In this document: positions 1 to 59,298 of the stretch, one piece after another
Position numbering within the stretch: position 1 is the first letter of the stretch
Layout: each line of letters opens with the position of its first letter
Virus record (IMG/VR): IMGVR_UViG_3300048061_000324
Location: 1-63,794 of that record
Direction: 5' to 3' (one strand)
DNA length: 63,794 bases
Source: a virus
Translations under genes and position numbers: made by a program
Notes under the pieces: model-generated
The model's database searches: none
What the model was told of the DNA's origin: nothing
The model's input: only the letters and a program-made list of their open reading frames with translations

Positions 1-321
1 ATGATTCTTTTTATCAAAGGTAAATTGTTTATTAAGAGCACCTCTGGTAGTCCATGTACTACTGCGATCACCAAACATTCCTTGTCCGGCATATAGTTCT
101 CTAGTCTTTTTTAACCAAGGTGTTTCATAAAACCCAATAGCATCAAACTTTCCGTATCCTTCTTGATATGATAATGCTTGTTTAATTATTGGTTCACATA
201 AATCTTTATCGTGTTTCTTTTTACTATATCTTTCACTATGTCCAGCAAAAACAATTTCACCATCTTCTACGACAGCCAATCCTGCGTCATGAAATCCTGC
301 ACTTACTCCTAGTGTTAACAT
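1..321 (-). CDS. Carbamoyltransferase, NodU/TobZ family (N-terminal part only)
   Basis: Only the first 107 codons are present; the ATG is at 321 and the gene leaves the window on the left. The translation opens LTLGVSAGFHDAGLAVVEDG, followed by GHSERYSKKKHD. This is the ASKHA-fold start of NodU/CmcH/TobZ O-carbamoyltransferases, which use carbamoyl phosphate and ATP to carbamoylate a hydroxyl on a sugar or similar acceptor. The stop of the upstream amidinotransferase shares one base with this start (TAATG), so the two are probably co-translated. The C-terminal acceptor domain is outside the window, so the substrate is unknown. A sugar acceptor is inferred from the neighbours; a DNA-base acceptor is an alternative. 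Confidence 0.8.
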   Translation of the reverse strand, partial: MLTLGVSAGFHDAGLAVVEDGEIVFAGHSERYSKKKHDKDLCEPIIKQALSYQEGYGKFDAIGFYETPWLKKTRELYAGQGMFGDRSSTWTTRGALNKQFTFDKKNH

Positions 322-1325
322 TATGCTCTTCTCTCCAAGTCTAACGTGGCACAGTGATGACCTCCTCCTAGTGTACGACTATGTGTTAGTTGTACAGGAA
401 TAACTTCAAACTTTGCACGTTCTAATTTCTTAATTAACTTTGGTTGTCTAGGATCGACAACAACTGTTTTAGGATCAATGCTTAACACATTCATTCCAAT
501 CCAATTACTAGCATATGGATATTTGTGAAACTCCATATCCTCTACACTGTCAACCCAAATGCGTTTATGCTTCTTTAAAAACTTTGGTAACTGCGACGGC
601 TTAACTCTTTGTTTGTTAATTAAAAGAGTTGATTCGTTAAGTGCCGCGATAGTACTATCAATATGAGCATATGCATAAACGTCTTCCCATATATGAACTG
701 TATACTTGGAACCAAGTACTGTACTTAACCATTGAGCACCTGCGGCATTACCTGTTTGACTTTTTAAGTATAACAAGTCATTACCAAAACGCATTACGTT
801 AGCCGCATCAAAGATTGGAGTCTTCTCTGTAAGTTTACCATCTTCAAATACTTCGTGTACTGGTAGTGCGTGTCTTGGTGCACTAATCCACTTAACACCT
901 GACTTCATTGCTTCGTGTCTAATGTCACGGTATGCTTCTGTTTCATGAAACCTACTATGAAACAATACTGGTGTTTCAATTACAACGTTTCCTATTACAA
1001 GGATAACATCACGTGGGCAATAATTATAAAAGCCATCTGCAAAGTATCTGTATCCATGTACAGTTTGTTGAAAGTCTAATTGTCTTGGACGTAAAACTTC
1101 AACACCTAAATCTGTTAATACTTTTTCAAACTGTCGTAGTTCATGATCTGTTAGGTCTATTATATCTTTATTAATTGGTCCAACTGGCTGTGCAGTTTCA
1201 GTCCACTTGCTATGTTTAGCAACTTCATTAAAAACATCATCATACTTTGGAAACCTTGCTCCGTGAACATCTCCTAGTACAACCTTCTTTAATGGATCCC
1301 ATTCGTTATGTGATTCAATAATCAT
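321..1325 (-). CDS. Glycine/inosamine-type amidinotransferase
   Basis: A 334-residue protein of the arginine:glycine amidinotransferase (AGAT)/StrB1 family, which moves the amidino group of arginine to an amine to give a guanidino product. The catalytic triad can be placed: Asp173 in IFDAANVMRFG, His221 in HIDST and Cys325 in GGGHHCATLD, each in its AGAT/StrB1 context. A PRD motif lies near residues 104-106. Length is close to the family's usual 340-390. It starts just inside the end of the DegT aminotransferase gene (4-base overlap) and runs into the carbamoyltransferase. Family assignment is firm. Whether the acceptor is glycine or an aminated sugar/cyclitol is inference; the neighbours favour the sugar. 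Confidence 0.88.
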   Translation of the reverse strand: MIIESHNEWDPLKKVVLGDVHGARFPKYDDVFNEVAKHSKWTETAQPVGPINKDIIDLTDHELRQFEKVLTDLGVEVLRPRQLDFQQTVHGYRYFADGFYNYCPRDVILVIGNVVIETPVLFHSRFHETEAYRDIRHEAMKSGVKWISAPRHALPVHEVFEDGKLTEKTPIFDAANVMRFGNDLLYLKSQTGNAAGAQWLSTVLGSKYTVHIWEDVYAYAHIDSTIAALNESTLLINKQRVKPSQLPKFLKKHKRIWVDSVEDMEFHKYPYASNWIGMNVLSIDPKTVVVDPRQPKLIKKLERAKFEVIPVQLTHSRTLGGGHHCATLDLERRA

Positions 1326-2020
1326 TTGTAACTTCCCATTTTAAAACATTTTGTAATACTTGGATACTTCACGTGTTGTGGTGTTTTCTCTTTGTATTGA
1401 TCTAATTTAACTATACCAACTGCTGATTGCTCAGGGGACAAATAATAATGATATCCAACTTCTTCATACTGTTCCTTATCCCAGGGAGACACTTTTAGAT
1501 CTCTGCCATCGTACCTGGCACGAATAATCCAATCATATGCTTCTCTACTATCTAATAGTATAGCACCTCCTTTACCGATTGTCAATGGTTTTCCATTACC
1601 AAAACTCAAGCATTTAAAGGTTTCTTGTTCATACATATTGCGTTGTAATCTTCTAGCACTATCGTATATAGGCAAGTGTCCTAGTTTGTATTCACCTATC
1701 CATTTGTCTTCGTTAATAACAAATGATAAACCCAAACGTTCAAGCATCATAGGTATACTTAAATATGTTTGGTCTGGTATTTCAATATGAGGGATATGAC
1801 TTGGGTGTTTTCTTTTATACCATCTTATGCACAATTCGATTGCGTGTGTACAACAATCAGTTGTTACTACATATGGTGCTCCAGTATAATCAGCAAGACG
1901 TTTTTCAAATTCTCTTATAACATCATACGGATCATTCCAACCAACACCATAATCTTTTAACATCTCTAGGATGTCAAGATTAATAATGTCCTGTAATTTG
2001 TAAGGTGTATCTTGGTTCAT
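1322..2020 (-). CDS. Short DegT/DnrJ/StrS-family PLP aminotransferase
   Basis: A 232-residue PLP-dependent protein of the DegT/DnrJ/EryC1/StrS sugar aminotransferase family. Visible landmarks are TTDCCTHAIEL near residues 53-63 (cofactor-phosphate region), Asp120 in YDSARRL, and LSFGNGKPLTIGKGGAIL near 138-154 with Lys144 as the likely Schiff-base lysine. The usual family length is 360-400, so the C-terminal domain is largely missing; this may be a compact phage form. Its start overlaps the upstream 2OG oxygenase by 41 bases; a later in-frame Met (residue 20) would remove most of that overlap. Expected role: amination of a keto-sugar, giving the amine the neighbouring amidinotransferase needs. 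Confidence 0.78.
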   Translation of the reverse strand: MNQDTPYKLQDIINLDILEMLKDYGVGWNDPYDVIREFEKRLADYTGAPYVVTTDCCTHAIELCIRWYKRKHPSHIPHIEIPDQTYLSIPMMLERLGLSFVINEDKWIGEYKLGHLPIYDSARRLQRNMYEQETFKCLSFGNGKPLTIGKGGAILLDSREAYDWIIRARYDGRDLKVSPWDKEQYEEVGYHYYLSPEQSAVGIVKLDQYKEKTPQHVKYPSITKCFKMGSYK

Positions 2021-2504
2021 AACCTATATTGCCTGCACTGTGTGGAACTCTTCCACGCCAAAGCACGGCTCCTCCTTTGTGCCAATTCATACTATATTGG
2101 TCTACTTCAAACATATGTCCTTGTTTTTTATCTTCTAAAAATACTAAACAACGTAACACATCATCACTACTTTCGATATGAAAGAGTTCTTTATATTTGT
2201 TATAGTGATCTGCGTGTGGTGGTAGTATGTCACCTGTTGTCATTTTATAGAATGTATAACCGCAGTCTTTCCATTCTAAAATTTTTCCAATGTCTTTTGC
2301 CCATTGTGGAATTGCTGACTGATCATTAAACATCATACCAGTAAAGTTATCATGCGTATGTCCAGCAGTTCTCCATTTTGCTAATTGCTCTAAGTCTCCG
2401 TAAGCAACTCGTTTATAATCAAAACTTTCAAAGTCTTTTGTTTCCCATACAGGATCAAGTTCCAGTGTATGATATTCTAAAGGACTAATCTCTTGTGTTG
2501 CCAT
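1980..2504 (-). CDS. 2OG-Fe(II) oxygenase, aspartyl/prolyl-hydroxylase-like
   Basis: A 174-residue protein with the facial triad and 2-oxoglutarate arginine of the cupin-fold dioxygenases: His97 and Asp99 in PPHADHY, His155 in RVPHSAGN and Arg165 in EPRYTLQITGH. The family couples oxidative decarboxylation of 2-oxoglutarate to hydroxylation of a protein, sugar or small molecule. It overlaps the dehydrogenase upstream by 20 bases and the aminotransferase downstream by 41, so it belongs to the same operon. The substrate cannot be told from sequence. A sugar-modifying role is inferred from context. Confidence 0.75.
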   Translation of the reverse strand: MATQEISPLEYHTLELDPVWETKDFESFDYKRVAYGDLEQLAKWRTAGHTHDNFTGMMFNDQSAIPQWAKDIGKILEWKDCGYTFYKMTTGDILPPHADHYNKYKELFHIESSDDVLRCLVFLEDKKQGHMFEVDQYSMNWHKGGAVLWRGRVPHSAGNIGYEPRYTLQITGHY

Positions 2505-3633
2505 AATGTATTACTTTCACTTTTGGATCTTTGGCTGTGTATGTACGCCATGGATCGAAAACTATTGTTGCACTGTCGACATTAAAGTTATGGTCAGTTG
2601 GGTGAGTTATAACCATAACTTCAACTGCATGGTCGAAACCATTAACAATCATTCCACCCAACTTTCCAATATAGTGTTGAACTAGTAATGCATAAGATCC
2701 ATCAGTGTATGCTACTCCTGGCTTATATGTATCACTCGTAAAGCAAATTTGCTTTCCATGTTTTAATATTTCTTTTGCCATACGTTCGGCTTGTACTTCC
2801 CTACTTTTGGCAATCGCGTCGAACAAGTCATATCCTAAGTCTAATCGTTCCGCTAAATGTCTTAGGGCAATATTATCTCTAGGGTGACAAGGTCCACCAT
2901 CGCCCATGCCTGCTTTCATATAAGCGGCACTGGTAATTCGGTATCCTGCATTACTTAAACTATTTGTTACAACATCAACATTCATATTCCCAACACTTTG
3001 GGCAACGTCTTGAATCATATTAACTAGACTTAACCTTGCACTAATAAATGTGTTGTAAAATATTTTTGTTGCTTCTGCTTCTTCCCATGTACCAATATTA
3101 TAATGCGGATCATTCTCCATTACTGTTTTGTAAAATTTTACTAATGCTTTTGCATCAGTGTCGTTTGGTTTGTTGCCTCCAATGATAACCATATCTGGAT
3201 TTACCATATCCCAAGCAACTGTACCCATAGCAATTAAGTATGGGTTATAAATTAATCTTGCTTTATCTAATAAGCCTGCGAATTCTCTTCTTGTTGTTCC
3301 TGGAAGTACTGTACTAATTAAAACAACAATAGTATCTTCTGTTGCATATTTGTTAATTTCTTTTAAACATTCTTTAACAGGATCTAATCCAAAGTCTTTG
3401 TTTGGTAAATGTGTTATAGGAGTTTCTCCACCATAGTCTTTATGGTGTGGAGTTTGTACTGCAACAAAGACAAAGTCCTGTCCTACTACTGCTTCTTTTG
3501 GTGTCTTAGACACTCGTACAAGCCCACTAAAGCGTTCTACCTTGTCATACCCTGTAACTGTATGTCCTTTCTTAACTAACATCTCAGAACTAATCATTCC
3601 AAGTTTTCCTAAACCAAACCAACCTATTTTCAT
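2485..3633 (-). CDS. UDP/GDP-sugar 6-dehydrogenase family
   Basis: A 382-residue nucleotide-sugar dehydrogenase of the Ugd/WecC/WbpA type, which oxidises C6 of a nucleotide sugar to a uronic acid with two NAD+. The N-terminal Rossmann motif is GWFGLGKLG (residues 4-12). The middle domain carries EATKIFYN (about 187-194). The nucleophile is Cys249 in GGPCHPRDN, a variant of the usual GGxCxPKD. Family members are usually 390-440 residues, so this one is slightly short at the C terminus. It overlaps its upstream neighbour by 4 bases. With the DegT aminotransferase it recalls amino-uronic acid routes such as WbpA/WbpE; the exact sugar is unknown. Confidence 0.85.
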   Translation of the reverse strand: MKIGWFGLGKLGMISSEMLVKKGHTVTGYDKVERFSGLVRVSKTPKEAVVGQDFVFVAVQTPHHKDYGGETPITHLPNKDFGLDPVKECLKEINKYATEDTIVVLISTVLPGTTRREFAGLLDKARLIYNPYLIAMGTVAWDMVNPDMVIIGGNKPNDTDAKALVKFYKTVMENDPHYNIGTWEEAEATKIFYNTFISARLSLVNMIQDVAQSVGNMNVDVVTNSLSNAGYRITSAAYMKAGMGDGGPCHPRDNIALRHLAERLDLGYDLFDAIAKSREVQAERMAKEILKHGKQICFTSDTYKPGVAYTDGSYALLVQHYIGKLGGMIVNGFDHAVEVMVITHPTDHNFNVDSATIVFDPWRTYTAKDPKVKVIHYGNTRD

Positions 3634-4835
3634 AATTCTAATACCTTTGTAATATGTTTTCTAATCTCACCTGTCCTAATTAAGTTACGATTGTGTATAA
3701 GGATTGGTTCCATATGTTTCTTTATTCTTTTTAATTCTCTATATGATTGATTACTGATGTCAATAATAATATCAAATACTTTATCCATTCTTTTAATGGG
3801 ATCAGTTTCTTCATCATAACTTTCATCCCAGAACTCGTGGAATGTTTTTGCTCCCCAATGTTTCAACAAGTCTAAACTATGTGTACCTGCTAATAATAAT
3901 ACAGGTGAGCCTTGCTTCATAGGGTTTAATGTTTTTTCACTTATTTGTCCCCAAGGGTATTCGTAGTTTGTTTCACATACTAAACTAGCAAACGAGTTCC
4001 AATAAGTATCTTCCAACGGATCAGAAGTAGTAATATTATTTATGGTTCCTACTTGAGGGTTTATATAATCTTTCATGCTTACTATTTGACATTCAGTATC
4101 TTCTTTTGTTAATGGCAAATGAGCCATAAGGTCTTTACAACCTTTGCTATAAGATTCAAAATGTTTACTGTTGTTTAATGGAAATTTTAAAAGTACATCA
4201 TCTGTTTTATGATAATGTGTAATAACACTGTCCTCTGGCATTATGTTATATAAGAAACTAACAGCCATATGTCTATGCTGATCCCAGCGATATGTGAAAC
4301 AGTTTATTTTATGATTAATTTCTTCTGGTAGACCATTGCTAGGTTCTCTGTTATAATGACAAGCGCCTAAACTAAAAGTGTCTAATGGGTATATTGCCCA
4401 GTCGGAATACTTTGTGTTTTGTAATTGTTCTAACATACGATACTCATTTGTAAATATTTTAAACTTACAGTTGTGCTTTTTACACCAGTTTTGTATCATA
4501 TCGAATTCATTGATGCTACAATCTTCTTGTATTAACCCGTCTGGGCAACTATACCTGGAGTGATTTTGCCATACTGATAATACTTCGTACAAAAAGAAAT
4601 ATACTGTCGTATGGTCTACAAAGTTAATACTTGAATCTGACCAAGATTCGAACCATTCACACGGACCGTCAAATATAAAATAAGGGGTTTTGATTTCTAA
4701 ACTTTGGAGTGATTCTGCTGTTTTTCGAAATCTTCCACGTGTGTCACTAAATTTAGTGATGGTTGACGTTGCATCAACTACAGAGTGGTTTATTGCTTTG
4801 TTAATGTTATTTATGTAAATTGAATTAAATTGCAT
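3630..4835 (-). CDS. Glycosyltransferase-like protein, fucosyltransferase-type C-terminal motif
   Basis: A 401-residue soluble protein without a recognised N-terminal domain. Around residues 285-330 it contains LVCETNYEYPWGQISEKTLN followed by PMKQGSPVLLLAGTHSL. The pattern of a Glu, then SEKT, then a pocket of small residues is the donor-binding signature of GT10-like and related GT-B folds. This supports a glycosyltransferase, probably using a product of the surrounding sugar genes, but it is one motif only. It sits between the radical SAM gene (11-base overlap) and the dehydrogenase (4-base overlap). Confidence 0.5.
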   Translation of the reverse strand: MQFNSIYINNINKAINHSVVDATSTITKFSDTRGRFRKTAESLQSLEIKTPYFIFDGPCEWFESWSDSSINFVDHTTVYFFLYEVLSVWQNHSRYSCPDGLIQEDCSINEFDMIQNWCKKHNCKFKIFTNEYRMLEQLQNTKYSDWAIYPLDTFSLGACHYNREPSNGLPEEINHKINCFTYRWDQHRHMAVSFLYNIMPEDSVITHYHKTDDVLLKFPLNNSKHFESYSKGCKDLMAHLPLTKEDTECQIVSMKDYINPQVGTINNITTSDPLEDTYWNSFASLVCETNYEYPWGQISEKTLNPMKQGSPVLLLAGTHSLDLLKHWGAKTFHEFWDESYDEETDPIKRMDKVFDIIIDISNQSYRELKRIKKHMEPILIHNRNLIRTGEIRKHITKVLEL

Positions 4836-6183
4836 CGAACCAAGCCATATATTCGGGAAAAACTTCGCTAAAAATGGTACTTCTACGTTTATCGAGCTCT
4901 TTAGTATATACTTTAAAGTTCTGCTTATGATTATTACTATCTACTGTTTGTTGACTTCTCCAGTATTCAATAATACGTTCTAGTTTAGCAGTTTCACTAT
5001 TGTGCATTAACTCTACAATTTCCATCTGTTTCATATACTCAACTGTATTAGTCATGTATTCTTCAAATGTTTTATCTAGTATTTTAACATCCATCATCTC
5101 AGGATATCTTAAAAAAGGTATGTCAATGTACATACAATCTCTACCGTATTGTTTTCTTATTTCAACTAAATCTTTTAGAAAGTCTTTGAATGATGTTACA
5201 CTTAATGCATTGTAGGTACACATGAATGTAACTACAAACCTGTCTTCATTTTTAAATTCTTCTAATACACGTTTTACATTTTTTATAAACTTGTTATAAT
5301 CTAAACCATTTCTAATATACTCTGCTTTATTACCAAATGCTTCTGCACTTGTGTAAACTTCTAGTTTACGAACTTTGCCACTTGCTAATACTTTCTTTGC
5401 TTGATTAATAAACTTATCGAATAGTTTGTCCTCAACACAAAAGTTACTATTAATACCTAACAATAAATCTTTATTTGGTTTATCTGTTTCAATGATCCAG
5501 TCCATCATTTTAAATGTGTTCTTATTCATAAGTGGCTCGCCACCTGTAACACGGAACGTATGCAATGCTGGGTACAACTCAGGCCACCATTCCCAAAATG
5601 CTTCTACATATGGATTGTGTTCTCTTTCCGGTATAGGCATTCTGCCTCTGCGTTCTGTCCATGTTATGTCGTTGTAATTGTCTGAGGTGCTAAAGCCTCC
5701 ATGTTGTTTTACTTCTTGCATCCACGCACTACTGATAGCCGGACTGCAATACATACATTTAAAATTACAAGCATAACCAAAACTTACTTCTACATAACTT
5801 GGTTGAAAGTTTGTACTCCAATCATTATTTTTAATTGTATCAAAGTGTTTGTTACTCCAACTAAATGCACTCTTTAAATGTCTGTCACTTAAAGCATTTG
5901 GATCTGCATCTTCAACTCTCCAACAGTAGTCACATTCTTTAGGTCTACCACCTTCGAGCATTTCTTTACGTTGTTGTTTTTTATATATAGAGTTGTGTAG
6001 TGAACTAGGGTCTAGTTTAATTTCGTCAACTGGTACTTGGTGTACCGGTGGGTGATGACAACTATGTGCAGTTCCATTTTGTAAGTTAAGTGTAAGTTGT
6101 GTCCACTTTGCTAAACAGAATCCAGGACCTACTGCATTCAGTTTGGCTTTCATTTCATGCGGATCTGTTCCGGTAAAACTCAT
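4825..6183 (-). CDS. Radical SAM protein, twitch-domain type
   Basis: A 452-residue radical SAM enzyme. The [4Fe-4S]-binding CxxxCxxC is Cys139-Cys143-Cys146 in FGYACNFKCMYCSPAIS, and the SAM-contacting GGEP motif appears as VTGGEPLMNKNT near residue 213. Extra Cys residues before the core (42, 84, 87) may hold a second cluster or zinc. Phage members of this family are usually called twitch-domain radical SAM proteins; no substrate is established. Placed between a phosphomannomutase-like gene and a glycosyltransferase-like gene, it could perform a radical step on a sugar or a peptide. That is inference. Confidence 0.85.
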   Translation of the reverse strand: MSFTGTDPHEMKAKLNAVGPGFCLAKWTQLTLNLQNGTAHSCHHPPVHQVPVDEIKLDPSSLHNSIYKKQQRKEMLEGGRPKECDYCWRVEDADPNALSDRHLKSAFSWSNKHFDTIKNNDWSTNFQPSYVEVSFGYACNFKCMYCSPAISSAWMQEVKQHGGFSTSDNYNDITWTERRGRMPIPEREHNPYVEAFWEWWPELYPALHTFRVTGGEPLMNKNTFKMMDWIIETDKPNKDLLLGINSNFCVEDKLFDKFINQAKKVLASGKVRKLEVYTSAEAFGNKAEYIRNGLDYNKFIKNVKRVLEEFKNEDRFVVTFMCTYNALSVTSFKDFLKDLVEIRKQYGRDCMYIDIPFLRYPEMMDVKILDKTFEEYMTNTVEYMKQMEIVELMHNSETAKLERIIEYWRSQQTVDSNNHKQNFKVYTKELDKRRSTIFSEVFPEYMAWFDAI

Positions 6184-6887
6184 TACGAATAATCTTCTTT
6201 AAGTATATCCCAAGTATCATAAGGCCCTTTGACTTGATGCCATTTATCTCCAGGGTTTGTCATTTTGTCTGCTAATGGTTTATCGTTTCCATTAACATGA
6301 ATTCTGTCTCCAAAGAATATCATTGGTGTCCCAATAATATCATATACTTGTGCTTTGTTCTTTCCTTTTAGATGAATATCTATACTAGTGTTACCACCTA
6401 GTTCTGCTTCAAATCCTGGAAAAGTTTCGTTAAACATTTCACAAATACTAACACGTTCATTATTTACTTTGTCCCATTCATAATAATCATCACGTTGTTG
6501 CCCTACGGCATTTCTTCCTACAGTACTAAAGTTTATTAACCCTGTACGTTTTTCAATATGAAGTCCATACTTGTGTTTATATTTACTGAAGTCTACTTGT
6601 TGTTCTAACCATGTGTCCATATCTTCTGGAGCATTAAGGTTACTACTCGAAACTTCAATACCATTACGCCATACACTGTTACCTGCACATTGAAATACCA
6701 TTGTACAGTTGTCTACGATCTCGTGTCCTATTTGTTCTATTGTTTTAGGTCTATCACTACCTGTAACAATAAAGACACTTTTGTTTTTCATCCAGTTTAA
6801 GAACCAGAGTCTAAAGTCAACAGGAATTACTTGCCTACTTTCAGACAAGGTTCCATCTACGTCAAATACATAATTTACACGGTCCAA
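6183..6887 (-). CDS. Phosphomannomutase-like HAD-superfamily enzyme (TTG start)
   Basis: A 234-residue protein resembling eukaryotic-type phosphomannomutase (PMM): the HAD nucleophile motif FDVDGTL (Asp9, Asp11), a cap segment STVGRNAVGQQRDDYYEWDK, then LGGNTSIDIHLKGKNKAQV and FFGDRIHVNGNDKPLA, matching the PMM GR..s...R..F.e.Dk and FFGD...GGND blocks in order. Expected chemistry is 1,6-phosphomutase or phosphatase action on a hexose phosphate. No ATG or GTG fits the frame. A TTG at 6887 is used, about a dozen bases after AAGGAG, and an in-frame stop lies 33 bases upstream of it. The start lies inside the end of the 53-codon gene. Confidence 0.8.
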   Translation of the reverse strand: MDRVNYVFDVDGTLSESRQVIPVDFRLWFLNWMKNKSVFIVTGSDRPKTIEQIGHEIVDNCTMVFQCAGNSVWRNGIEVSSSNLNAPEDMDTWLEQQVDFSKYKHKYGLHIEKRTGLINFSTVGRNAVGQQRDDYYEWDKVNNERVSICEMFNETFPGFEAELGGNTSIDIHLKGKNKAQVYDIIGTPMIFFGDRIHVNGNDKPLADKMTNPGDKWHQVKGPYDTWDILKEDYS

Positions 6888-7036
6888 CTTTTCAACTGCT
6901 CCTTTGTTGGTTTCATTGGTTCAAGTTTTTCTATCTTGCCACCCTTCTCTAAAAACTTTTTCATTCGTTCATCTAGTTTTCTTTGAAGTTCAGCAGGTTC
7001 TGGTTTTGTATAATCTTTTTGTTTATTATCTATCAT
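6875..7036 (-). CDS. Small basic hypothetical protein, 53 aa
   Basis: A 53-codon ORF begins with ATG at 7036, overlapping the stop of the RuBisCO-like gene (ATGA), and ends inside the start of the phosphomannomutase-like gene. The product is lysine-rich and predicted to be mostly helical (MIDNKQKDYTKPEPAELQRK, then LDERMKKFLEKGG). No family is recognised. The 4-base overlap and the AAGGAG near its end, which serves the next gene, indicate it is translated. It may simply couple translation of its neighbours. Confidence 0.55.
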   Translation of the reverse strand: MIDNKQKDYTKPEPAELQRKLDERMKKFLEKGGKIEKLEPMKPTKEQLKSWTV

Positions 7037-8169
7037 TGTGTTACACTGTCTATTGCTTTTCTTAATTTTAATGCTCCGGCTTTCATACCGTCTGGGTGTT
7101 CGTGAATTGCTCCACCAACATTTGCCATATAGTCAACACCGAAGCGTCTTGTTATTTCTGGAATAAGTTCTGCTGTCATACCACAACTTAAAGCAGGCAC
7201 TACATTGTTGTTACTTAACATATGCATTGTGCTTCGAAGTTCATTTTCATCATCACTTAGATATCCGCCCCACATACCTGTATGGATTGTATCTACTCCA
7301 CAGATACTTGCTAACTTACATAACACATACCAACTAATACGATATGCATTCTTTGTACTGCTTATTACTTTGTCGCCTGACTTCTGATAATGTATATACA
7401 AAGGTAAGTTTAATTTGTTAATACTTTTATAAGATCCGTGTCCACTCCAGAAGTTAACGTGTACTCCATTACCTCCGCCATCTGCAACCATTTTGGCTCT
7501 ATCTAGCAAGTGCAAAGGATCACTATTAATACAATAGCAATACACAACGTTTGTTCCTGCTAACACCCGCTGTATGACGTCTATGCGAGTCTTAAGGGGT
7601 AAACAAGCCGGGTTTGCCATTATCTCATCTTCTTTAATAAAGTCAACTCCGCCTTCTACGAATGCAGTAACAATTTCAACTAATGCTTGTTCTGTTAGTC
7701 CTGTCTTAGGTTTAACAATACTACCTAGTAATGGTTTGTTATAATTGCCTGTAAGTTTTCTAAATCCTGATAATCCGTAACGTGGTGCAACTGCATCACA
7801 TAATGAAAAATCGATATCTAAATCTAATAGTTCACATCTGTGAATATAATCGATGTCCATTTGTCCACCCATTAACACACAAAGTAATTGTGCTATTCCA
7901 TCAGTTTCCCAGTCAATAATTCTATAGGGCCAAGCAATTTTAACTATGCCTGTGTTCTTTCCTATAAAGTCTGCTGGCTGTCCAATAATCTTTGCTGAGT
8001 ATTGTTCAATCAACTCTGGTGTTTCATATTCATTTCTTACACTAGGGTTACCTACACTTTGCCCGACTGCTAATCCAAATGCCGCCTTGTTTAAGTCGTT
8101 ACCTTCTAGTTTGTATGTTACTGTAAAGTATTCCTTGGGATCTACTTCACTCACGTATATATCAAGCAT
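7033..8169 (-). CDS. RuBisCO-like protein (form IV type)
   Basis: A 378-residue homologue of the RuBisCO large subunit. The C-terminal barrel is clear: PLLGSIVKPKTGLT (Lys153/Lys155, matching the catalytic KPK), GGVDFIKEDE with Lys179, Asp181 and Glu182 matching the carbamylated lysine and two Mg2+ ligands, His260, DTIHTG with His296, SCGM near 328, and VGGAIHEHPDG near 351-361 at the phosphate-binding site. Loop 6 reads GMWGGYLSDD and has no lysine at the position of Lys334, which CO2 fixation requires. It should therefore be a form IV enolase/isomerase-like protein, not a carboxylase. At 378 residues it is shorter than the usual 410-470. Neighbours are a cupin and sugar genes. The substrate is unknown. 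Confidence 0.88.
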   Translation of the reverse strand: MLDIYVSEVDPKEYFTVTYKLEGNDLNKAAFGLAVGQSVGNPSVRNEYETPELIEQYSAKIIGQPADFIGKNTGIVKIAWPYRIIDWETDGIAQLLCVLMGGQMDIDYIHRCELLDLDIDFSLCDAVAPRYGLSGFRKLTGNYNKPLLGSIVKPKTGLTEQALVEIVTAFVEGGVDFIKEDEIMANPACLPLKTRIDVIQRVLAGTNVVYCYCINSDPLHLLDRAKMVADGGGNGVHVNFWSGHGSYKSINKLNLPLYIHYQKSGDKVISSTKNAYRISWYVLCKLASICGVDTIHTGMWGGYLSDDENELRSTMHMLSNNNVVPALSCGMTAELIPEITRRFGVDYMANVGGAIHEHPDGMKAGALKLRKAIDSVTQ

Positions 8170-8186
8170 AATGTATTGTACCTTCT

Positions 8187-8516
8187 TTATTCTTTAATGT
8201 CAAACATATATTTGTCATCTGTGTCACAAATATCTCTAACTACTGTTAATTCTACATCGGTTAAGTATTCAACTTGACTAACTTCATATGGGTATAATAT
8301 AAAAATGTCGCCTTCGCTAAATATTTGTCCGTTAATTTTTACTTTTCCTTTTCGCATACAGTTGATCTCTGTACCTTTTTTATGAAAGTGATCCTGATGG
8401 AATTCACCTTTTTTGTGTCTGTGAATACCAACTTCAAAGTTTGCCTTAAAAGCCGTAGGTTCAAAGTTACCTACAAACCATCCACCTTTCATATCATCTA
8501 ATTTAAATTTCTTCAT
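8187..8516 (-). CDS. Single-domain cupin
   Basis: A 109-residue small beta-barrel protein. Cupin motif 1 is HFHKKGTEINCMRKGK, with His43, His45 and Glu50 as likely metal ligands, followed by GQIFSEGDIFILYPYEVSQV as motif 2. Small cupins of this kind are often sugar isomerases/epimerases or metal-dependent dioxygenases. It overlaps the preceding gene by 4 bases and is followed after 17 bases by the RuBisCO-like gene, so the two are probably made together. The motif-2 histidine is not obvious. A binding or isomerase role is inference. Confidence 0.75.
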   Translation of the reverse strand: MKKFKLDDMKGGWFVGNFEPTAFKANFEVGIHRHKKGEFHQDHFHKKGTEINCMRKGKVKINGQIFSEGDIFILYPYEVSQVEYLTDVELTVVRDICDTDDKYMFDIKE

Positions 8517-8797
8517 TTATGTTCCTCTAACAAGTTATATTCATATAACTCTTTTGGTGTATTAACTATAAGCATATCAGGATCGTGTACATCCATAAAC
8601 TTAACTTCGTTAACGTAAACTTTACACATATCAGTTAGTTCAGGATAGTCTAATATTAATTCATTATCTAATATTACAGTATCAAAGTTTCCTACTTCAA
8701 GTGTTCTTTGTAAAACACTTCTGCCATTACAGGCAACAACTGCGATTGGGTAATCCCAACCTATCCACTTATCGTTTGATACAGATAGTTTGCCCAT
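8513..8797 (-). CDS. Hypothetical protein, 94 aa
   Basis: An unrecognised 94-residue protein with alternating hydrophobic strands (YPIAVVACNGRSVLQRTL, FDTVILDNELIL, PDMLIVNTPKELYEY), compatible with a small alpha/beta fold. A GAAGGA sequence about 8 bases before the ATG supports the start, although that start lies 37 bases inside the end of the SGNH gene upstream. Its stop overlaps the cupin start by 4 bases. No function is proposed. Confidence 0.55.
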   Translation of the reverse strand: MGKLSVSNDKWIGWDYPIAVVACNGRSVLQRTLEVGNFDTVILDNELILDYPELTDMCKVYVNEVKFMDVHDPDMLIVNTPKELYEYNLLEEHK

Positions 8798-9456
8798 CCT
8801 TTATGTCCTTCATCTAATGTGTGTCCACCTGTGCCACAGGGCCAGCCTTGACTTTTTGTCATGTCAATAAAACTTGGCATAATGTAATTAACATCTTTAA
8901 GCCATTCGCTGTCTGGTTCGTCAAGTGCAAACGTTTGTATTAATTTTACTTTTAAACTTTTTGCAATTTGTTGTAAGTTCCACATACGTTCAAACTGCAT
9001 TTGTTTTCTACTTTCAGTTCCTAGTGTTGTTGTATACAGTTTATGCATTTTATTAATTGTGTCAACTAACATAGGATCTAAATTCATTTCATCGTTACCT
9101 GGTATATGTCCTGGTATGTTATAACATACATTATGATAAGGTATATACTTTGCACCTTGCCAATCCACTGGTAACTCATCACGTTCAAACGTTGTCCAAC
9201 AAACAACAACAAGTAATTCTGCACCTGGATGTTTATTACACCATTCACGCATAAAACGTATTGTGCGTCTTGCTATTCTGTTCCCACTTGTTCCACGCAT
9301 TGCTTCATTTACAACTGCTGGTATACTTAACTTATCTGCAAGTAGTTTGGGCCAACTGTTACGCAATCTGTATGTAGGTGTGTCATCATTATAAGGTAAT
9401 CCTAATTCATCACCTTCGGTCCAACTATCACCATTTGCATACAAACATTTAATCAT
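8761..9456 (-). CDS. SGNH-hydrolase-like protein (copy 1)
   Basis: A 231-residue GDSL/SGNH-type protein. Block I is YANGDSWTEG (nucleophile Ser in GDS), an Asn-containing block is GTSGNRIARR, and a C-terminal Asp...His block is TLDEGHKGWA. I chose ATG 9456 because it forms a 4-base ATGA overlap with the nucleotidyltransferase stop and aligns with the starts of the paralogues at 11062 and 12712; an in-frame ATG at 9468 would add four residues. SGNH enzymes deacylate or transfer acyl groups on sugars, glycans or lipids. Here the likely target is a glycan linked to the cassette's sugar. Confidence 0.72.
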   Translation of the reverse strand: MIKCLYANGDSWTEGDELGLPYNDDTPTYRLRNSWPKLLADKLSIPAVVNEAMRGTSGNRIARRTIRFMREWCNKHPGAELLVVVCWTTFERDELPVDWQGAKYIPYHNVCYNIPGHIPGNDEMNLDPMLVDTINKMHKLYTTTLGTESRKQMQFERMWNLQQIAKSLKVKLIQTFALDEPDSEWLKDVNYIMPSFIDMTKSQGWPCGTGGHTLDEGHKGWANYLYQTISG

Positions 9457-10175
9457 CCACGCCACCATTTGTTATGATAGTTAGATAAATCTTCTGGAGT
9501 ACCAACCGGGCTAAAGTTCTTTGCTTCTACCTCATACGGTTTAACAATATTATTTTTAAGTGTGTAATTATACACTGGTGCTAGATAAAATTCGTTATTA
9601 TGTCTATCATTGTTTTCAATCATTTGTTCAGCACCTTCAACAAATAAACTTCCTTTGCTCCAATGGTATAAACCAACAGTAGCCATATTACTAATTGCGA
9701 CTTTCTCTGCCGCTTCTGTTATGTGCCCGTCGTCATTAATCTTAACAAAACTATGTTTATTATGATTATGTGGGTAGGTCATTACCCAACTCACGTGGGG
9801 CTCAAGTTTACATTTTTCTAAAAACATTTCGCTATCCCAATGTAACACTTGATCACTGTTAATACTAATTAAAGGTTCATCGTTGTTTATAAATTCTTTT
9901 GCTTTTAATAAACTACAAGCGGCACCTTCTGTAAGATGATCTAATACAACAATATTAACATTGTCTGCAAAACTTTCTAAATGTTCTCTGAGCCATGGAT
10001 AATCAACAAGATGTTCTTGTTGGACTACGAATGTATAGTTACCAGCAATACCTAAACTATCAACAGCACTTTGTATCATTGTAGTGCCGCCAACTCTTAC
10101 TAGAGGTTTAGGAACAGTGTATCCTGCATCTTTGAATCTACTGCCGGCTCCTGCCATTCCAATTATAATATTCAT
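9453..10175 (-). CDS. Sugar-1-phosphate nucleotidyltransferase
   Basis: A 240-residue NTP_transferase-fold protein. The N terminus IIIGMAGAGSRFKDAGYTVPKP is a phage-style variant of the GxGxR...PKP nucleotide-binding signature, with the PKP lysine at residue 23. LISINSDQVLHWD near 103-115 carries the metal-binding aspartate, and LTEGAACSLL matches the segment that reads the base or sugar. Expected role: making an NDP-sugar from sugar-1-phosphate, downstream of the phosphomannomutase-like enzyme. It overlaps the SGNH gene that follows by 4 bases. Confidence 0.78.
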   Translation of the reverse strand: MNIIIGMAGAGSRFKDAGYTVPKPLVRVGGTTMIQSAVDSLGIAGNYTFVVQQEHLVDYPWLREHLESFADNVNIVVLDHLTEGAACSLLKAKEFINNDEPLISINSDQVLHWDSEMFLEKCKLEPHVSWVMTYPHNHNKHSFVKINDDGHITEAAEKVAISNMATVGLYHWSKGSLFVEGAEQMIENNDRHNNEFYLAPVYNYTLKNNIVKPYEVEAKNFSPVGTPEDLSNYHNKWWRG

Positions 10176-14197: not shown

Positions 14198-14440
14198 TTA
14201 AAACCAGTTCCAAACTCCACGTATTGCTAAACACAAATACATAAGTTCCATTAGTGCTCTGGGTATATCTTTATCTTTGTAACCCATGTATACCCAAATA
14301 CTACAACTGAATAATGCAACTGCCCACCCTAGCCACTGTAGTTCTTCGTTACCACTTGATAATATAAATGCACTTATCATTGCTAGGATAAAACCTAACC
14401 ATCTAAATCCATCCAGTTTTTCGTAAAAGCGAATTTTCAT
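14198..14440 (-). CDS. Small membrane protein with three predicted helices
   Basis: An 80-residue protein with three hydrophobic stretches at about residues 14-30 (WLGFILAMISAFILSSG), 35-53 (LQWLGWAVALFSCSIWVYMG) and 60-80. Short polar loops contain KDKD. It looks like a small inner-membrane protein; the size and three-helix layout recall SemiSWEET/PQ-loop-type proteins, but no motif confirms this. It overlaps the phosphodiesterase-like gene by 38 bases. Confidence 0.6.
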   Translation of the reverse strand: MKIRFYEKLDGFRWLGFILAMISAFILSSGNEELQWLGWAVALFSCSIWVYMGYKDKDIPRALMELMYLCLAIRGVWNWF

Positions 14441-14858
14441 AATTGCTTACCCAATCTGAGCAAATACCAAAGCAACCTTCAGGGACGGTATCTTTCTCAT
14501 TTTGCAAACATATAACACTTTTAGATGTTACTTGTTTGTAAGGGTATGTCCAAATATACCCTTTACTTGTTAATGTTCTTTCATCTTGTTCATGCCAAAA
14601 GCAATGTATGTAATTAAATAACATAAATTCTAATGCTTCTAAATTTTTTGCATGATTCCAAAATGCATTGTTGCTTATAAAATTTTGTGTAACAGGGTAT
14701 GTAGGTTTGTCGTGTCCTAGCCATAACCTTTCATTAACAAACCACACATCAACTTCGCAGTCAAAACCTTTGTCAACTGCGTTAAGTAAATACTCAGGAT
14801 CGTTTTCCCTCTCAGGTTTTGGACCTGCTGTATTTCCTCTATGTGCGATTAGTTTCAT
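14403..14858 (-). CDS. Short glycerophosphodiester phosphodiesterase-like protein
   Basis: A 151-residue protein with the active-site start of the GDPD family: LIAHRGN (His6, Arg7), EVDVWF (Glu35, Asp37) and LWLGHDKPTY (His49), i.e. the HRG...ExD...H metal and acid/base set in correct order. Typical GDPD proteins have 240-300 residues and a full TIM barrel; only about half is present, so it is either a reduced enzyme or a binding protein. Possible roles are phospholipid head-group turnover or sugar phosphodiester cleavage. It overlaps both neighbours. Confidence 0.65.
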   Translation of the reverse strand: MKLIAHRGNTAGPKPERENDPEYLLNAVDKGFDCEVDVWFVNERLWLGHDKPTYPVTQNFISNNAFWNHAKNLEALEFMLFNYIHCFWHEQDERTLTSKGYIWTYPYKQVTSKSVICLQNEKDTVPEGCFGICSDWVSNYENSLLRKTGWI

Positions 14859-24078: not shown

Positions 24079-24086
24079 TATTTATT
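24079..24086 (-). promoter_or_regulatory. T4-type late promoter
   Basis: AATAAATA then AACATATAAG on the minus strand, 31-38 bases before the start of the 744-residue fibre gene. It overlaps the stop codon of the 4177-residue gene. 7 of 8 matches to TATAAATA. Confidence 0.52.
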
Positions 24087-27000
24087 CGTTAATTTGGACG
24101 TAGTTATCGTCTACATAGCCACTTGCTATATATCTTCCACTTTGATCAAAAGTTACACCAACAAGTGGTACTGTTCCTTGACATTCAGTTAAAAATTTAG
24201 CCTGATTAGACGTTTGATCCTGGATTGTATTAGTATCACCGTATGTGTACCACACTTTACTATGCCCGTCTACTATCTCTTGACGTTCACTAACATCAAT
24301 AACTTGATCAGTTTCATAATGTCTAAATGCTCTTGCTGTTCCCATTGTTCCTCTGTGGATATTTTTTAATTTATTTCCATCAATTTCCCAATAAACAATA
24401 CGTTCTCCTGCAATCCAAATTACACCTGGAATATTGGCATTTAAGTTTGGTGTTGCTAATTTACTTGCATCTACTACTGAAATTTCTTTATCTGTTCTTA
24501 ATAAATCTGTTGCTAGTGCAGTTGTGTTATCTTCACACAACCTGTAGTAACGAACTTGTCCTAGTATGTCTTGCCATACTTTCCAAGAAACTCTTTGCTT
24601 AATAATGTTTTCACTAAATTGTGATATTACAATGATATCTGTGTTACCAATATTAGTTGTTAGTTTAAGTTTACCATCTTCAATTTCGTAATCTTGTTCT
24701 ACACTTAAACGTACACCGTTTTTACTAACCCAAAGATAATTTGCATTACTTGGAGTTCTATAGAGTGTGTAAGTCGGTGTATTAATAATTTGTGTTGTTG
24801 CAACATCAAATGAAGTTGATCCGTCAAACGGTGCACTATCAAAACCATTTGCTAATATAACTGCTGAAGCAGATGCACCTTTAAATGTTTGCGTTGTCAT
24901 ATCTAATACATTGTGGCTACTAAATGTTGTTACATTTAATTTAAATCCACTTGTAATAGTTAATCCACTTGCTAGTGTAATGTTTGTACTTGAAACTGTG
25001 TACTCGGCGTTTGTATTATCACCTATTGCAATTTTGGAACCACTTGATGGAGCAGAAGAAAATTGAACTTCCTTCGTACCCGAATTGTCAACGAGTGTCC
25101 AACCTGAGTTAGATACTCCATCAATAAACACTGAAACGTCTGATGCTGTTATAGTTGCGTGGTCTATATCAGCAACGTCAGTTAAAGCAAAGTTAGTTAA
25201 AGTCCCGTCACCAGTTGCGTATGTGTATACCGCAGGACGTAAACGTTCCTCTGCTAGTTCTACATAAATTTTAGCATCAACTGGACCTTCGTATAAAGGT
25301 TCGTTTGCGAGAGTAAAAGTCCTCGTACTACCATCCATAGTAAAGATCTCTTGCCCAATGTGGCTATACGCAATCCTTACACTTGGATCCAAATTGAATA
25401 CAAATATATGTATGTGGTCACCCACTGTCGGTTTATAACCGCCTGTGAATTCTAATTCTGCTCTGCTATTAATATTGTTAATTTGGTTATCTTTTTTAAC
25501 TCCATTAACTAATACTAATGCCTGTTGAGCAATACTTGAACTAATTGGAAGATTGTATTTTGCGTCAACACCATCTCCAGTTAGTACATAATCTAAAATC
25601 ATATTTTCACCACTGTTGCCTAAACTAACAATGTCGATAATATCTCCAACAACAGGAGCAACATTAAACACAACTTCGAAAGTTGTAAAATCAAGTGTAT
25701 ACTCATCTGGCTGTACCTTACCAGTCTGTGTTGTATAAATTAATAAGTTCATATTGTGATGTCCGTCACTAGTTCTAAAACTAAATCTTGTTTTGTTACC
25801 ATCACCTGTATGTTTAATAACATCTATTCTTGGGCTTAATCCATCGGTACCACCATATTCACTTGTAGGTGTTTGATAAATTTCCATATCTAAACTATCA
25901 AACACTCTACCAGGAACAAACTCTTCTGGTGCGTGTGAATTGTATTGGTCTACAAACTTGCCGCCAACTATGTTAATGTCTTCTGGTCTTGTGCCTAATA
26001 ATGAATCTCCAAACCTACTGCTAATATGTGTATCAGCAACTCCACTTATCATTGGAACACCTTCAGCACCAATCTCAAAGTTATCAAATGGAGAGTCATC
26101 AAATCCTGCACGATCCATACCAGGCTGTTTATCAAATCCTGGTCCTAATATTTTATTACCAGGATAGTCAATACCATAAAACAAGTTTTCTAATTCTTTA
26201 GCAGGTTGAATATCTGTTGGTTGGTAATATGCAATAGTTCTGTCCATTGCGTTTGCAAAAGTTTCATCAGCAATTACTGTTAAACTATCACTAGTAAATG
26301 TTGTTCCACTAGTAAAGTTCTCATCGGCTGTATATACTTCTCCTTGGTATGTAATTTTATTACCTGTAGTATATGATGTATTTGCTTGCCATTCTATAAT
26401 CTCTGAAGTATATTTGATTCTATCAAACTTCATTGTAGTGTCTATAGAACGTGCTTTTAAATTTTCTAATTGTGCATATCCAAGTGCAGTAGTACCAGTA
26501 CTAGTTGCAATTGATACATTAGGTGTACTAACATAACCTGTACCTTTATTTGTAATTTCAATACCTGTAACTACACCGGATTCTACTGTTGCTGTTGCTT
26601 TAGCACCAGATCCACCGCCACCAGTAATTGTTACTGCTGGAACAAAGTTATATCCTGTTCCACCATTAGTTACTGCTACACTGCCAATAGAATGTTTATA
26701 GTTATCGTTCCAAGGCTTATTAAATCCTGTTGACAGTCTTACTGAATCTTCACTATCACTGCCATCTGGTTTTCTATAATAACCTAAGTTAGAATCAAAA
26801 TAACTATTGATATCAAAATCAGTTAAGTCACCTGTCCACGGATCAGTTTTATTATAGTTTGAAATATATTCTCTAATCTTAGTTCTGTAAGGTTTTGCTT
26901 CTGCAATAAACTCACTAACATATGTTTGATTATCTTTACGGTAATATGGTAAATCATCTAAGGCTCTAATTTTATGATTAACACCAATGAATGATGTTTT

Positions 27001-30000
27001 AAATAACCAATCAATAAATGGTTGTTCATCTAATACATAATACAACATTGTAAATATTGTATTGTTTGCCGACAGAGCCATATCATCAATTAAAATTTTA
27101 TTTAAAATTGTTTCAACAATTTTTCTTGTTTCAATTTGTGGCTCTTGGTCAAATAATTGGAAGTCAAAAACTTCAGTGGCAAAACCATAACGTGTAGAAG
27201 TGTAATTCCAAATACCTTCGCTAATTTGTATAGTTGCGTTTTTAATACCTACAGTTGTATACTCAGTTCCGTTCCAATATAGTAACTCCCAGTTACCACC
27301 ATTTTCTACTTTAACTGTTTGTCCTACTGTAGGCGTTACATCAACTAAATCTTTTTTAAGTGCAATACTATAATCAATATAAGTGTCTGCACTAAAGTTT
27401 GTTTCATACCAGTCAGTGTATGACCAATAGTTACTAACGTCGTAGCCTTGTAACTTACCAAGTACCCAAGTATTATCTGCTCTTTTAGAATATATACTCC
27501 ATCTATTTTGTACAGTTGTATCTGTGCCAACAAGCACTTTATATCCTACTGGTTTTTCTTTAATACGAACATAACTTAATTCTGTATTGTTGGAAACTCT
27601 TTGATCCCAGTCGCCACTTGCTTGTTTAGGTTCTGGATCTTTTGCTAATAAATCAGTAATGTCTTTAGTTAATGTAATGGTATTTTTAGCCATTACTGTA
27701 TTAACCGTTGTTAAAAATTCTTTTAATGCAGACATTCTATTAATGAATAAACTTTGTCTTGGTCTAAATTGAATACCGTATTGCTCACTTGCACTTAATG
27801 TAGGATCTGGTACACTATTACCATAACTGTCTGCACCTACTAAACTATCTATTAACTTTCTTTTAAAGTTAGTAGGTAATGTAGCATCAGCAACATTCTC
27901 TTTTATTAGTGCCCATTCATTGTGAATTATTTTATCGTTTTTAGTTTTATCATAATCGATAACTAAAACAGTTCCAGTATTTTTTAATTCTGATGCAAAG
28001 TTATATAATGAAACATCACTTGAACCTGTAAATGCAACATACTTTAATTCAGCAGTTGTAGGATCGATTAATATATCTGTAACATCTTTAATACTTTTTG
28101 TTTTGTTCTTGGCTAAATCTAAAACATTTTTAACCCAGAAGAAATATCTATTTTTAACAACTGTACCTTGTATTTTAGAAACTGTTGTATACAGGCTTGT
28201 ACTATAAACTGTTCCAGAACCTTCGTATGCACTTGGAACCTTATCGCTTTCAACCCACTGGTAAACATTTATACTACTTCCAGGAAATACACTTCCCCAG
28301 AAACTACTTCTATATGCCCAGTCACCTTGTTCAGCATAAACATATTTTACTGTTGATAGATCCCACCAAATTTTTCCTACTTGATCCGGTCCCCAAGTAT
28401 GAGCACCTTCGATGGCATATGTTGCCGGATCCCATAATGTTTTGTAATCAATATTTTCATCTGCTATACCTGGGATCTTTCCTTTAATAGGATCGACCCA
28501 GTCATAATAATTAATAACTTCGTTTTTAATTTTATCGTAACTAAACACACGATTAATTTTTGTTATATCTACTAATTGTTGCTCTTGTTCATGAGTAACA
28601 AATATATCTTTTGCAGAACAGTAATGTGCAACTTGACCTGAATCAATAATGCTTCCTGACTTATCGTCATTAGGCATACCAATATAAATGTCATTACTGT
28701 CTAGTACTTGTAAAGCACTACCGAATAAATCATCAGCATCTATATTTGTGTTTGTAAATTTTTGTGTTTGTATGTAACTTGTATCTAACTCTTGATACGC
28801 ATAAACATTACCACCACGTTTTGTTGCATCGGCAAAGTGTGTACTGCTACTATCAAAATCTGTACCTTGTGTATCAAAAGACATCTGTGCGTTATATGTA
28901 CTTGTAGGCGCACCTACAACTAAAACTTTACCAGTTGTATCGATTGCAATCGATTTACCAAATTCTTGTCCATCAGTTTTAGCATTTTGTACAATATTTT
29001 GTACATTACCAAATTGGTCGCCAATAACATTCGCAAATAAGTTACCTGAAATATCTACAATAATAAGTTCGTTATCTTTGTCTGCAGATGTAATAGTTAA
29101 TTTATTATTACTAGCAGAAGCAGATATATTTGTTATACTTGCATTATTAATTTGTGTTGCAATGTCTTCTACATTTTTAGTATTAACACTTACTGTAGTT
29201 CCGTTAATTACTATTGAACCTGATGTAGTAGTTGTGTACTCAGGCCCAGTGTGCGACTTCGTAGGACCGCTTACGAGCCCTATTTTTGTAACAAGTCCAC
29301 TTGCTCTTTCAAATCTATTACAACCTGGAGCACCTGCAAATAATTTTGTAAATGTATTATTACAAGCAACACTTTCACCATAACGTCCATCAACATTATT
29401 AAGTGTAGTTGTTATTTTTTGTGTTTTAGAATATCCAGTTGAATTATATTTACTGTATACATACACTGCACCTTCGTTAGAATATGTAGTGTTTTCTGCT
29501 GGAGCACCAATAATAATATTGTCGCCTGTTTTATCTGTATCAATTGCAAAACCGAATTCAGTACTTGCTGTTCCATTAATTGTTGCTTTTAATTCCCAAC
29601 CAGGTCCTGACTTAACTCTAATTTCTGCACTTGTGGCTGGTGCTGTTGTAAATGTAATAGTTGTTCCTGATACAGTAACATCTTCGTGTTGTATTTGTAC
29701 AACACCATCTACAGTAACAATACTTGCTTCTGCGTTTGCTGTTGTTGTGAATGCTGTTGTTGTGTTATCGCCGGTAAACGAATCTGTAGTTGTAAACGTA
29801 TCTGTGTCTGTTGCTCTTTTAAACACATAAACTTTATCCACACCTGGAGCACCTGCAACTAATGTACTTCCGTCTTTACTAAATTTAACATTTAGTTTTG
29901 AAGTACCTGTTATACTTGGCGGTGCCCAAGCAAAAGAAACATTATACTGATTTCCTTCTTGATAATAAATGTGTAAGTTACCTTCTGGACAGCCTACACT

Positions 30001-58734: not shown

Positions 58735-59298
58735 ATGATAGAATCTATCTTTCCTACTCCTTTATACAGTAATATTGCTTCTGACAATTTACTAGCAGAC
58801 ATACAAAAAGAAATTTCTAATGTTGTTGAAAAAACAAAATTAGATTATAAATCTGATTGGGGCAAGACCCATAAGATATCATCATTATCAAATAACATAA
58901 TACAAGATAATAATTTAATAAACTTTAAAATGTTTTTAAATGAGAATCTGCATGACTATCTAACACAACTTGGATTCGATGCAAACAGACCACATAGATT
59001 AGAATCGTGGATTACGTTATTAGACACAGATGATTATGGTCATATACACGACCATGGAAACGCAGACGTATCTGGCGTTTACTATTTTCAAACAAATGAA
59101 CAAGACGGTGATATAGTATTTTATAATCCAGCACCACAAGTTGATATGTCAACAATCTTAAAAGCAAGTACTTGGCGTCATAAACCGATAATTGGAAAAA
59201 TGCTTTTATTTCCAGGTTATTTAAAACATGGTATATTCAGGAATGAAACTACATCAACTAGGATTAGTTTATCATTCAATATATTTTTTAATAAATAA
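58735..59298 (+). CDS. 2OG-Fe(II) oxygenase-like protein beside the portal gene
   Basis: A 187-residue protein of the putative 2OG-Fe(II) oxygenase type found in marine T4-like phages: IFPTPLYSNI start, HIHDHGNADVSGVYYFQTNE with the HxD pair, DIVFYNPAP, and LLFPGYLKHGIFRNETTSTR with the distal His and Arg. The metal set is complete. The substrate is unknown; position inside the head operon suggests late expression, so a virion or host protein target is possible. It starts 10 bases after gp20. Confidence 0.78.
   Translation: MIESIFPTPLYSNIASDNLLADIQKEISNVVEKTKLDYKSDWGKTHKISSLSNNIIQDNNLINFKMFLNENLHDYLTQLGFDANRPHRLESWITLLDTDDYGHIHDHGNADVSGVYYFQTNEQDGDIVFYNPAPQVDMSTILKASTWRHKPIIGKMLLFPGYLKHGIFRNETTSTRISLSFNIFFNK
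59290..59297 (+). promoter_or_regulatory. Possible late promoter
   Basis: AATAAATAACATTAAG overlaps the oxygenase stop, 29-36 bases before the next ATG. 7 of 8 matches to TATAAATA, but AT-rich stop regions can match by chance. Confidence 0.42.

Follow-up and report, generated by a model that had tools for sequence, protein, structure and literature searches.

RuBisCO-like proteins (RLPs) with a known job are few and, to our knowledge, act in salvage or catabolism. Enolisation by the metal-carbamate site and its lysines is the established RuBisCO mechanism. The closest described systems are the form III RuBisCO of P. horikoshii (2cwx/2d69), MtnW, the 2,3-diketo-5-methylthiopentyl-1-phosphate enolase (2oek, 2zvi), and OiaX with its relatives, the 3-oxo-isoapionate-4-phosphate branch, where an RLP with a conserved metal site works in sugar metabolism. 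On a Terrarubrum plasmid, an RLP that we take to be of the 5-methylthioribulose-1-phosphate (MTRu) isomerase type adjoins a cupin gene. ADP-heptose-type routes, composed of an isomerase, a PfkB kinase, a HAD phosphatase and a nucleotidyltransferase (NTase), offer a further comparison. Viral rbcL has been described as a carbon-fixation gene (PMC8506154, PMC12615777, PMC13390420), and a landfill study terms the viral gene 'RbcL-like' (PMC12607003). The 2007 GOS paper presented 65 marine homologues of RuBisCO that fall outside the clusters of all known forms (PMC1821046).

We analysed a viral DNA of 63,794 nucleotides from IMG/VR (the window), which carries a gene of the RuBisCO_large family, as do the viral contigs with reported 'rbcL' auxiliary genes. 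An earlier note on this DNA had assigned it to a T4-like phage, and the major head protein indeed matches PHROG 138 (E 1.5e-97); its nearest relatives are in the jumbo phages Phosso, Vibrio 2.275.O and PA5oct (61-64%). Elsewhere, the window encodes an AMP-binding (ANL) enzyme between recombination and nuclease genes (50963-52318, plus strand; Pfam E 1.2e-26), a 2OG-Fe(II) oxygenase in the head-gene region adjoining portal-like and capsid-assembly genes (58735-59298, plus strand; E 1.7e-17) and a single open reading frame of 4177 residues in the structural region (24082-36615, minus strand). The genes around the RLP are listed in Table 1.

Table 1. Position and properties of the RLP and its neighbouring genes in the window
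Feature	Position	Strand	Properties and evidence
RuBisCO-like protein (RLP)	7033..8169	(-)	378 aa, ATG start; Pfam PF00016, model, residues, tree
RLP key residues			K153/K155, K179/D181/E182, Q262, Y303, S328-C329-G330, G352-G353
Stand-alone NTase (NTP_transferase, PHROG 3980)	9453..10175	(-)	Pfam E 2.5e-12; PHROG 3980 E 2.7e-58
Small cupin	8187..8516	(-)	109 aa; 17 bp upstream of RLP; HxH(x4)E metal motif without the second-motif His
Mini GDPD-like protein	14403..14858	(-)	151 aa; about 6.2 kb upstream of RLP; alignments, model, Foldseek
PMM-type HAD	6183..6887	(-)	234 aa; downstream of RLP; Pfam PMM E 1.9e-20
Two interleaved genes: 94-aa protein and SGNH/DUF6071 protein (235 aa)	8513..9468	(-)	Pfam DUF6071 E 3.7e-11
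Nucleotide-sugar (UDP-glucose-type) dehydrogenase	2485..3633	(-)	Pfam E 7e-17; PHROG 9148 E 1.6e-81; same island

RuBisCO fold and altered active site

The RLP matched the Pfam RuBisCO_large profile across the barrel with 118.5 bits (cut-off 30.1; E 4.5e-34), and its closest PDB sequence was the P. horikoshii RuBisCO (E 1.2e-32). The AlphaFold model, computed from a 36-sequence alignment, had a pLDDT of 93 and a pTM of 0.91. Foldseek aligned the model over its full length to the archaeal RuBisCO 2d69 as the best match (TM 0.87, E 6e-33) and likewise over the full length to MtnW 2oem (TM 0.83). The structure prediction proposed in the earlier note therefore upheld its reading of the gene as a RuBisCO homologue. 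By its profile match, its fold and its carbamylatable lysine with the Asp/Glu Mg2+ site, the protein belongs to the RuBisCO superfamily.

The active-site residues were numbered by pea RuBisCO and compared over 57 members of the clade described below and the references; the residues near N123 were left out because the alignment is uncertain there. K153-P-K155 of the RLP corresponds to K175/K177 of RuBisCO, K179 to the carbamylatable K201, D181/E182 to D203/E204, G330 to G381 and G352/G353 to G403/G404, in agreement with the lysines, acidic residues and phosphate-site glycines named in the earlier note. The position of K334 in loop 6, which had been noted to have no lysine, is occupied by Tyr303. 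All 57 members keep K175, K177, K201, D203, E204, S379, G381 and G403. Replaced in every one of them are E60 (by Gly), T65 (Asn), W66 (Pro), H294 (Gln), K334 (Tyr) and G380 (Cys). The changes at E60, T65, H294, K334 and G380 with K177 retained form a signature that none of the references has, and the combination of a retained K177 and a changed H294 alone occurred in 57/57 clade members and in no reference. The missing E60-K334 pair speaks against carboxylation, and the metal-carbamate site and the lysines, which are retained, speak for enolisation. This supports the earlier proposal that the protein is not a carboxylase and probably enolises or isomerises a sugar phosphate. The P1 glycine loops are retained, the R295 position is Lys in 50 of the 57 members and the H327 position is His or Gln, so that one or two bound phosphates are possible. 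A subgroup (L024, L025, L032, L048, L050, L055, L057 and L070) has Gln at the H327 position and the motif QSSGAK, with Ser at the R295 position, and is likely a substrate variant.

A separate clade of phage and cellular RLPs

Pattern scans of IMG/VR yielded 182 relatives with the single RLP as query and 357 viral relatives with an alignment; a 96%-identical copy was located on a 307-kb viral contig. The search of INPHARED (50,697 deposited phage records) gave zero matches, PHROGs had no match for the RLP, and the BFVD structure library returned generic barrels at a TM of 0.42 or less and no RLP relative. The GTDB genomes contained 23 relatives, in SAR11, Legionella, Azospirillum, Bacteroidota, Verrucomicrobiota, Elusimicrobiota and Patescibacteria and also in archaeal bins (Nanoarchaeia/Woesearchaeota/Pacearchaeota). 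The family is therefore widespread and not a single case, a point absent from the earlier note. Several of the cellular matches come from metagenome or single-cell assemblies and lie on short contigs, some of which could have a phage origin; the copies in Legionella and Azospirillum belong to named isolates. Only 2 of 247 SAR11-order genomes and 4 of 143 genomes of the Legionellales carried the gene, a sporadic presence as expected for a mobile glycan gene.

In an IQ-TREE phylogeny of 83 rows, 35 phage RLPs, including the one in the window, and 22 cellular RLPs split off as one clade with a support of 100/99, and phage and cellular members were intermingled within it. The clade was apart from MtnW, the MTRu-isomerase type, Photo, OiaX and relatives, and forms I, II and III. 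In the phylogenetic check suggested in the earlier note, the protein hence fell in none of the branches of the MtnW, Photo or OiaX type. The references covered the branches named here, without the IV-GOS, IV-EnvOnly, DeepYkr and NonPhoto sequences of the older literature; the long branches L123, L098 and L099 and the very long branch of the MTRu-isomerase-type row are unsure in their own positions.

All named NCBIfam RuBisCO and RLP models scored the protein far under their cut-offs. The top-scoring model was form III RuBisCO with 150.8 bits (cut-off 497); the MtnW model NF007095 gave 127.3 (409), the OiaX model 118.1 (700) and the MtnW model TIGR03332 103.7 (513.6). From form III RuBisCO, with which it shares the KPK motif, the metal site and the P1 glycines, the phage RLP also differs in being short and in its glycan cassette. 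With MtnW it has in common the metal-carbamate site, the missing K334 and the expected enolase-type chemistry, but the MtnW branch keeps H294, has no Lys at 177 and has Ser at 334. The OiaX branch is 28-29% identical, keeps H294, R295 and K334 and is without K177; in the loci of this branch that we examined, the neighbours of the RLP are sugar transporters or four-carbon acid sugar kinases, unlike in the phages. The 65 GOS homologues could include the clade of the window phage. In the open-licence literature, which comprises few subscription journals and no preprints, we found no report tying an RLP to nucleotide-sugar synthesis or to such a cassette. As far as could be checked, the clade and its cassette context are new.

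The NTase is the constant partner of the RLP

The proteins of 81 phage RLP loci were clustered, and a thinned set of 35 loci with RLPs below 80% identity was used as the non-redundant sample. The NTase was present in 79 of the 81 loci and, in 35/35 non-redundant loci, on the same strand and at most 3 kb from the RLP. Since many islands hold further NTases, this closeness is partly a trait of glycan islands. The cupin was found in 58/81 loci and in 28 of the 35 non-redundant ones (absent in 7), with a distance to the RLP of 50 bp or less in 24/35. The GDPD-like gene was present in 68/81 loci; in the non-redundant sample, 29 loci had it at any distance (6 had none) and 24 within 3 kb, and it is mostly nearer to the RLP than in the window phage. 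The small size of this protein is combined with the invariant catalytic-type residues H6, R7, E18, N19, E35, D37, H49 and K71 in the alignments. Its model had a pLDDT of 94 and GDPD 2pz0 as the top Foldseek match (E 0.034, prob 0.90), and the GDPD profile matched 1 of 35 members weakly (E 0.033).

The earlier note had correctly placed a cupin directly upstream and a PMM-family HAD downstream of the RLP and had considered the three as a trio. The HAD, however, occurred in only 11/81 loci and was rejected as a functional partner; it is a local neighbour. The NTase, not the HAD, is the constant partner, and the conserved unit is the RLP with the NTase, usually with the cupin and the GDPD-like protein.

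In the window phage's own group, the genes for the 94-aa and the SGNH/DUF6071 proteins sit between the NTase and the cupin. The RLP surroundings comprise glycosyltransferase-like proteins, epimerases, UDP-sugar dehydrogenase and DegT. The adjoining island of the window (321-6183, minus strand) encodes amidinotransferase/deiminase-like, short DegT, beta-hydroxylase-like, UDP-sugar dehydrogenase and twitch radical SAM proteins, and related phages add a carbamoyltransferase (L001:17816-19363).

Other sugar-phosphate enzymes in phages without the RLP

The cupin and GDPD-like genes were also found in phages without an RLP; the RLP was within about 4 kb of the cupin in 60 of 80 cupin loci. In the Bellamy-type cyanophages, genes for a PfkB-type kinase and a HAD come before a gene for an NTase-RpiB fusion (RpiB Pfam E 3.9e-32). 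This arrangement was seen in Synechococcus phage Bellamy (L114:4992-6149) and its IMG/VR relatives (L323-L352), 30 loci in all, of which 27 also had the cupin and 26 the GDPD-like gene. These genes apparently constitute an ADP-heptose-like route for another sugar. In contrast, such a kinase or isomerase is not a constant part of the RLP cassette, where the RLP fills the slot. In cyanophage S-SKS1, the NTase is fused to 3,4-dihydroxy-2-butanone 4-phosphate (DHBP) synthase (E 5.4e-65), which acts on ribulose-5-phosphate; the fusion gene (L117:5001-6428) is annotated solely as DHBP synthase. Most other cyanophage-type loci had HAD-NTase fusions, and this HAD was present in 73/80 NTase loci. TalC adjoins the RLP cassette in L279-281, L303 and L308, and the RLP island of L055 holds DHBP synthase and a TalC-type gene, with TalC further downstream. 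Since sugar-phosphate enzymes fill the slot of the RLP, the RLP is suggested to be one of several makers of the sugar phosphate used by the NTase. The RpiB- and DHBP synthase-fused NTases are only 32-36% identical to that of the window, so their substrates may differ.

The cassette in bacteria and archaea

Every cellular locus long enough to judge had an NTase neighbouring the RLP (counted without the short L089 and the truncated L104; in L084 the NTase is on the opposite strand). In the GC-rich loci L103 and L094, the NTase was located with tblastn. All four genes of the cassette were present in Crocinitomicaceae, Azospirillum oleiclasticum and Elusimicrobia. The A. oleiclasticum locus (L103) has the GDPD-like gene at 3942-4400, the RLP at about 4471-5643, the cupin at 5648-5983 and the NTase from about 5980. 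Pelagibacter showed the order GDPD-NTase-RLP, most of its loci having a further NTase past the RLP, and the cassettes of Verrucomicrobia and Nanoarchaeia carry a full-length GDPD. In four Legionella species (L100, L101, L102, L160-L162), the RLP-NTase pair is beside a divergent gene of the LicD family, and neither the cupin nor the GDPD-like gene is close by.

Proposed function and alternatives

Based on the computed fold, the pattern of residues, the clade, the cassette and the other sugar-phosphate enzymes that take the place of the RLP, we favour with modest confidence that the RLP is a non-carboxylating Mg-carbamate sugar-phosphate isomerase or epimerase that feeds a dedicated nucleotide-sugar route for surface glycans. 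From these results we infer its catalysis, its substrate, the order of steps and the biological use of the cassette as follows. The Mg2+ held by carbamylated Lys179 and Asp181/Glu182 would chelate a ketose phosphate, and the carbamate or K153 would take the C-H proton, with Lys153/Lys155 as acid/base, to enolise the sugar phosphate. The enediolate would be reprotonated on the other carbon or face without addition of CO2, shifting the carbonyl or a stereocentre. The co-encoded NTase would then activate the product as an NDP-linked unit. In the same route, the small cupin may carry out another isomerisation or epimerisation step, and the GDPD-like phosphodiesterase may act as well. Finally, the glycosyltransferases of the island would decorate a surface with the activated unit, either the virion fibres or the infected host. 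A pentulose phosphate from the ribulose-5-phosphate pool is our tentative best guess for the substrate.

Alternatively, the substrate might be a phosphorylated polyol, a phosphonate or a sugar acid, the NTase a cytidylyltransferase whose CDP-linked group is passed on as a phosphodiester by LicD-type enzymes, and the GDPD-like protein an enzyme that edits or hydrolyses phosphodiesters. This would agree with the LicD gene at all examined Legionella loci, with the frequent GDPD-like genes and the full-length GDPDs in Verrucomicrobia and Nanoarchaeia, and with a weak similarity of NTase relatives to IspD. However, LicD occurs at the Legionella loci only and in none of the 81 phage RLP loci, and was rejected as a general partner; the NTase is nearest to generic sugar-phosphate NTases, and it is sugar-phosphate enzymes that replace the RLP. 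We consider a non-sugar substrate rather unlikely.

It is improbable that the RLP has lost its catalytic activity and instead serves the NTase or the cupin as a structural or regulatory subunit. H294 and K334 are replaced across the family, as such a role would allow, but neither the metal-carbamate site nor either of the KPK lysines varies even between deeply diverged members, and a dN/dS of about 0.05-0.09 in comparisons with three close relatives shows strong purifying selection on the gene.

Still less probable is the phage-borne methionine salvage raised in the earlier note, in which the RLP would act as an MtnW-like DK-MTP-1-P enolase or a 5-methylthioribulose-1-P isomerase together with the HAD and the cupin. 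In its favour, the window has RLP, cupin and HAD grouped together, the fold comparison gave MtnW as one of the closer matches, and the Terrarubrum locus also pairs an RLP with a cupin. That cupin is larger (about 166 aa), its neighbour is a serine acetyltransferase instead of an NTase, and its RLP belongs to a different clade. The cupin of the phages had no match to the acireductone dioxygenase (ARD/MtnD) profile, only weak Cupin_7/Cupin_2 matches in one relative, and no further salvage gene was noticed near the RLP. By the tree position outside the MtnW and MTRu-isomerase branches, the MtnW scores and the residue pattern, salvage was rejected.

A genuine or moonlighting CO2-fixing RuBisCO, encoded as a carbon-fixation auxiliary gene, is hardly credible and was rejected by the tree, the form III score under the cut-off and the lost active-site residues, with no phosphoribulokinase or small subunit seen in the glycan-synthesis context, in spite of the retained KPK, K201 and D203/E204, the form III model as the nearest HMM and a soil viral rbcL reported to be functional (PMC12615777).

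The RLP of the window is almost certainly no CO2 fixer, and its position beside a sugar-activating enzyme suggests a new job of the RuBisCO family in building surface sugars. We see about even chances that the clade is an unrecognised RuBisCO branch (KPK...KEDE...QxSG...GMxGGY...SCG) whose members catalyse a new reaction on a sugar phosphate within a mobile pathway to nucleotide sugars that is encoded by four genes (NTase, cupin, RLP and GDPD-like protein) and common to aquatic phages, bacteria and archaea, and that part of the rbcL counted as viral carbon fixation is this glycan enzyme. As the RLP passes the RuBisCO_large threshold easily, automated pipelines may log it as rbcL and carbon fixation, which is contradicted by the active site. 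Because a named Azospirillum strain carries all four genes intact, the question can be tested directly. If the reading is true, the most studied enzyme family would gain a new reaction and a role in biosynthesis through the nucleotide-sugar branch.
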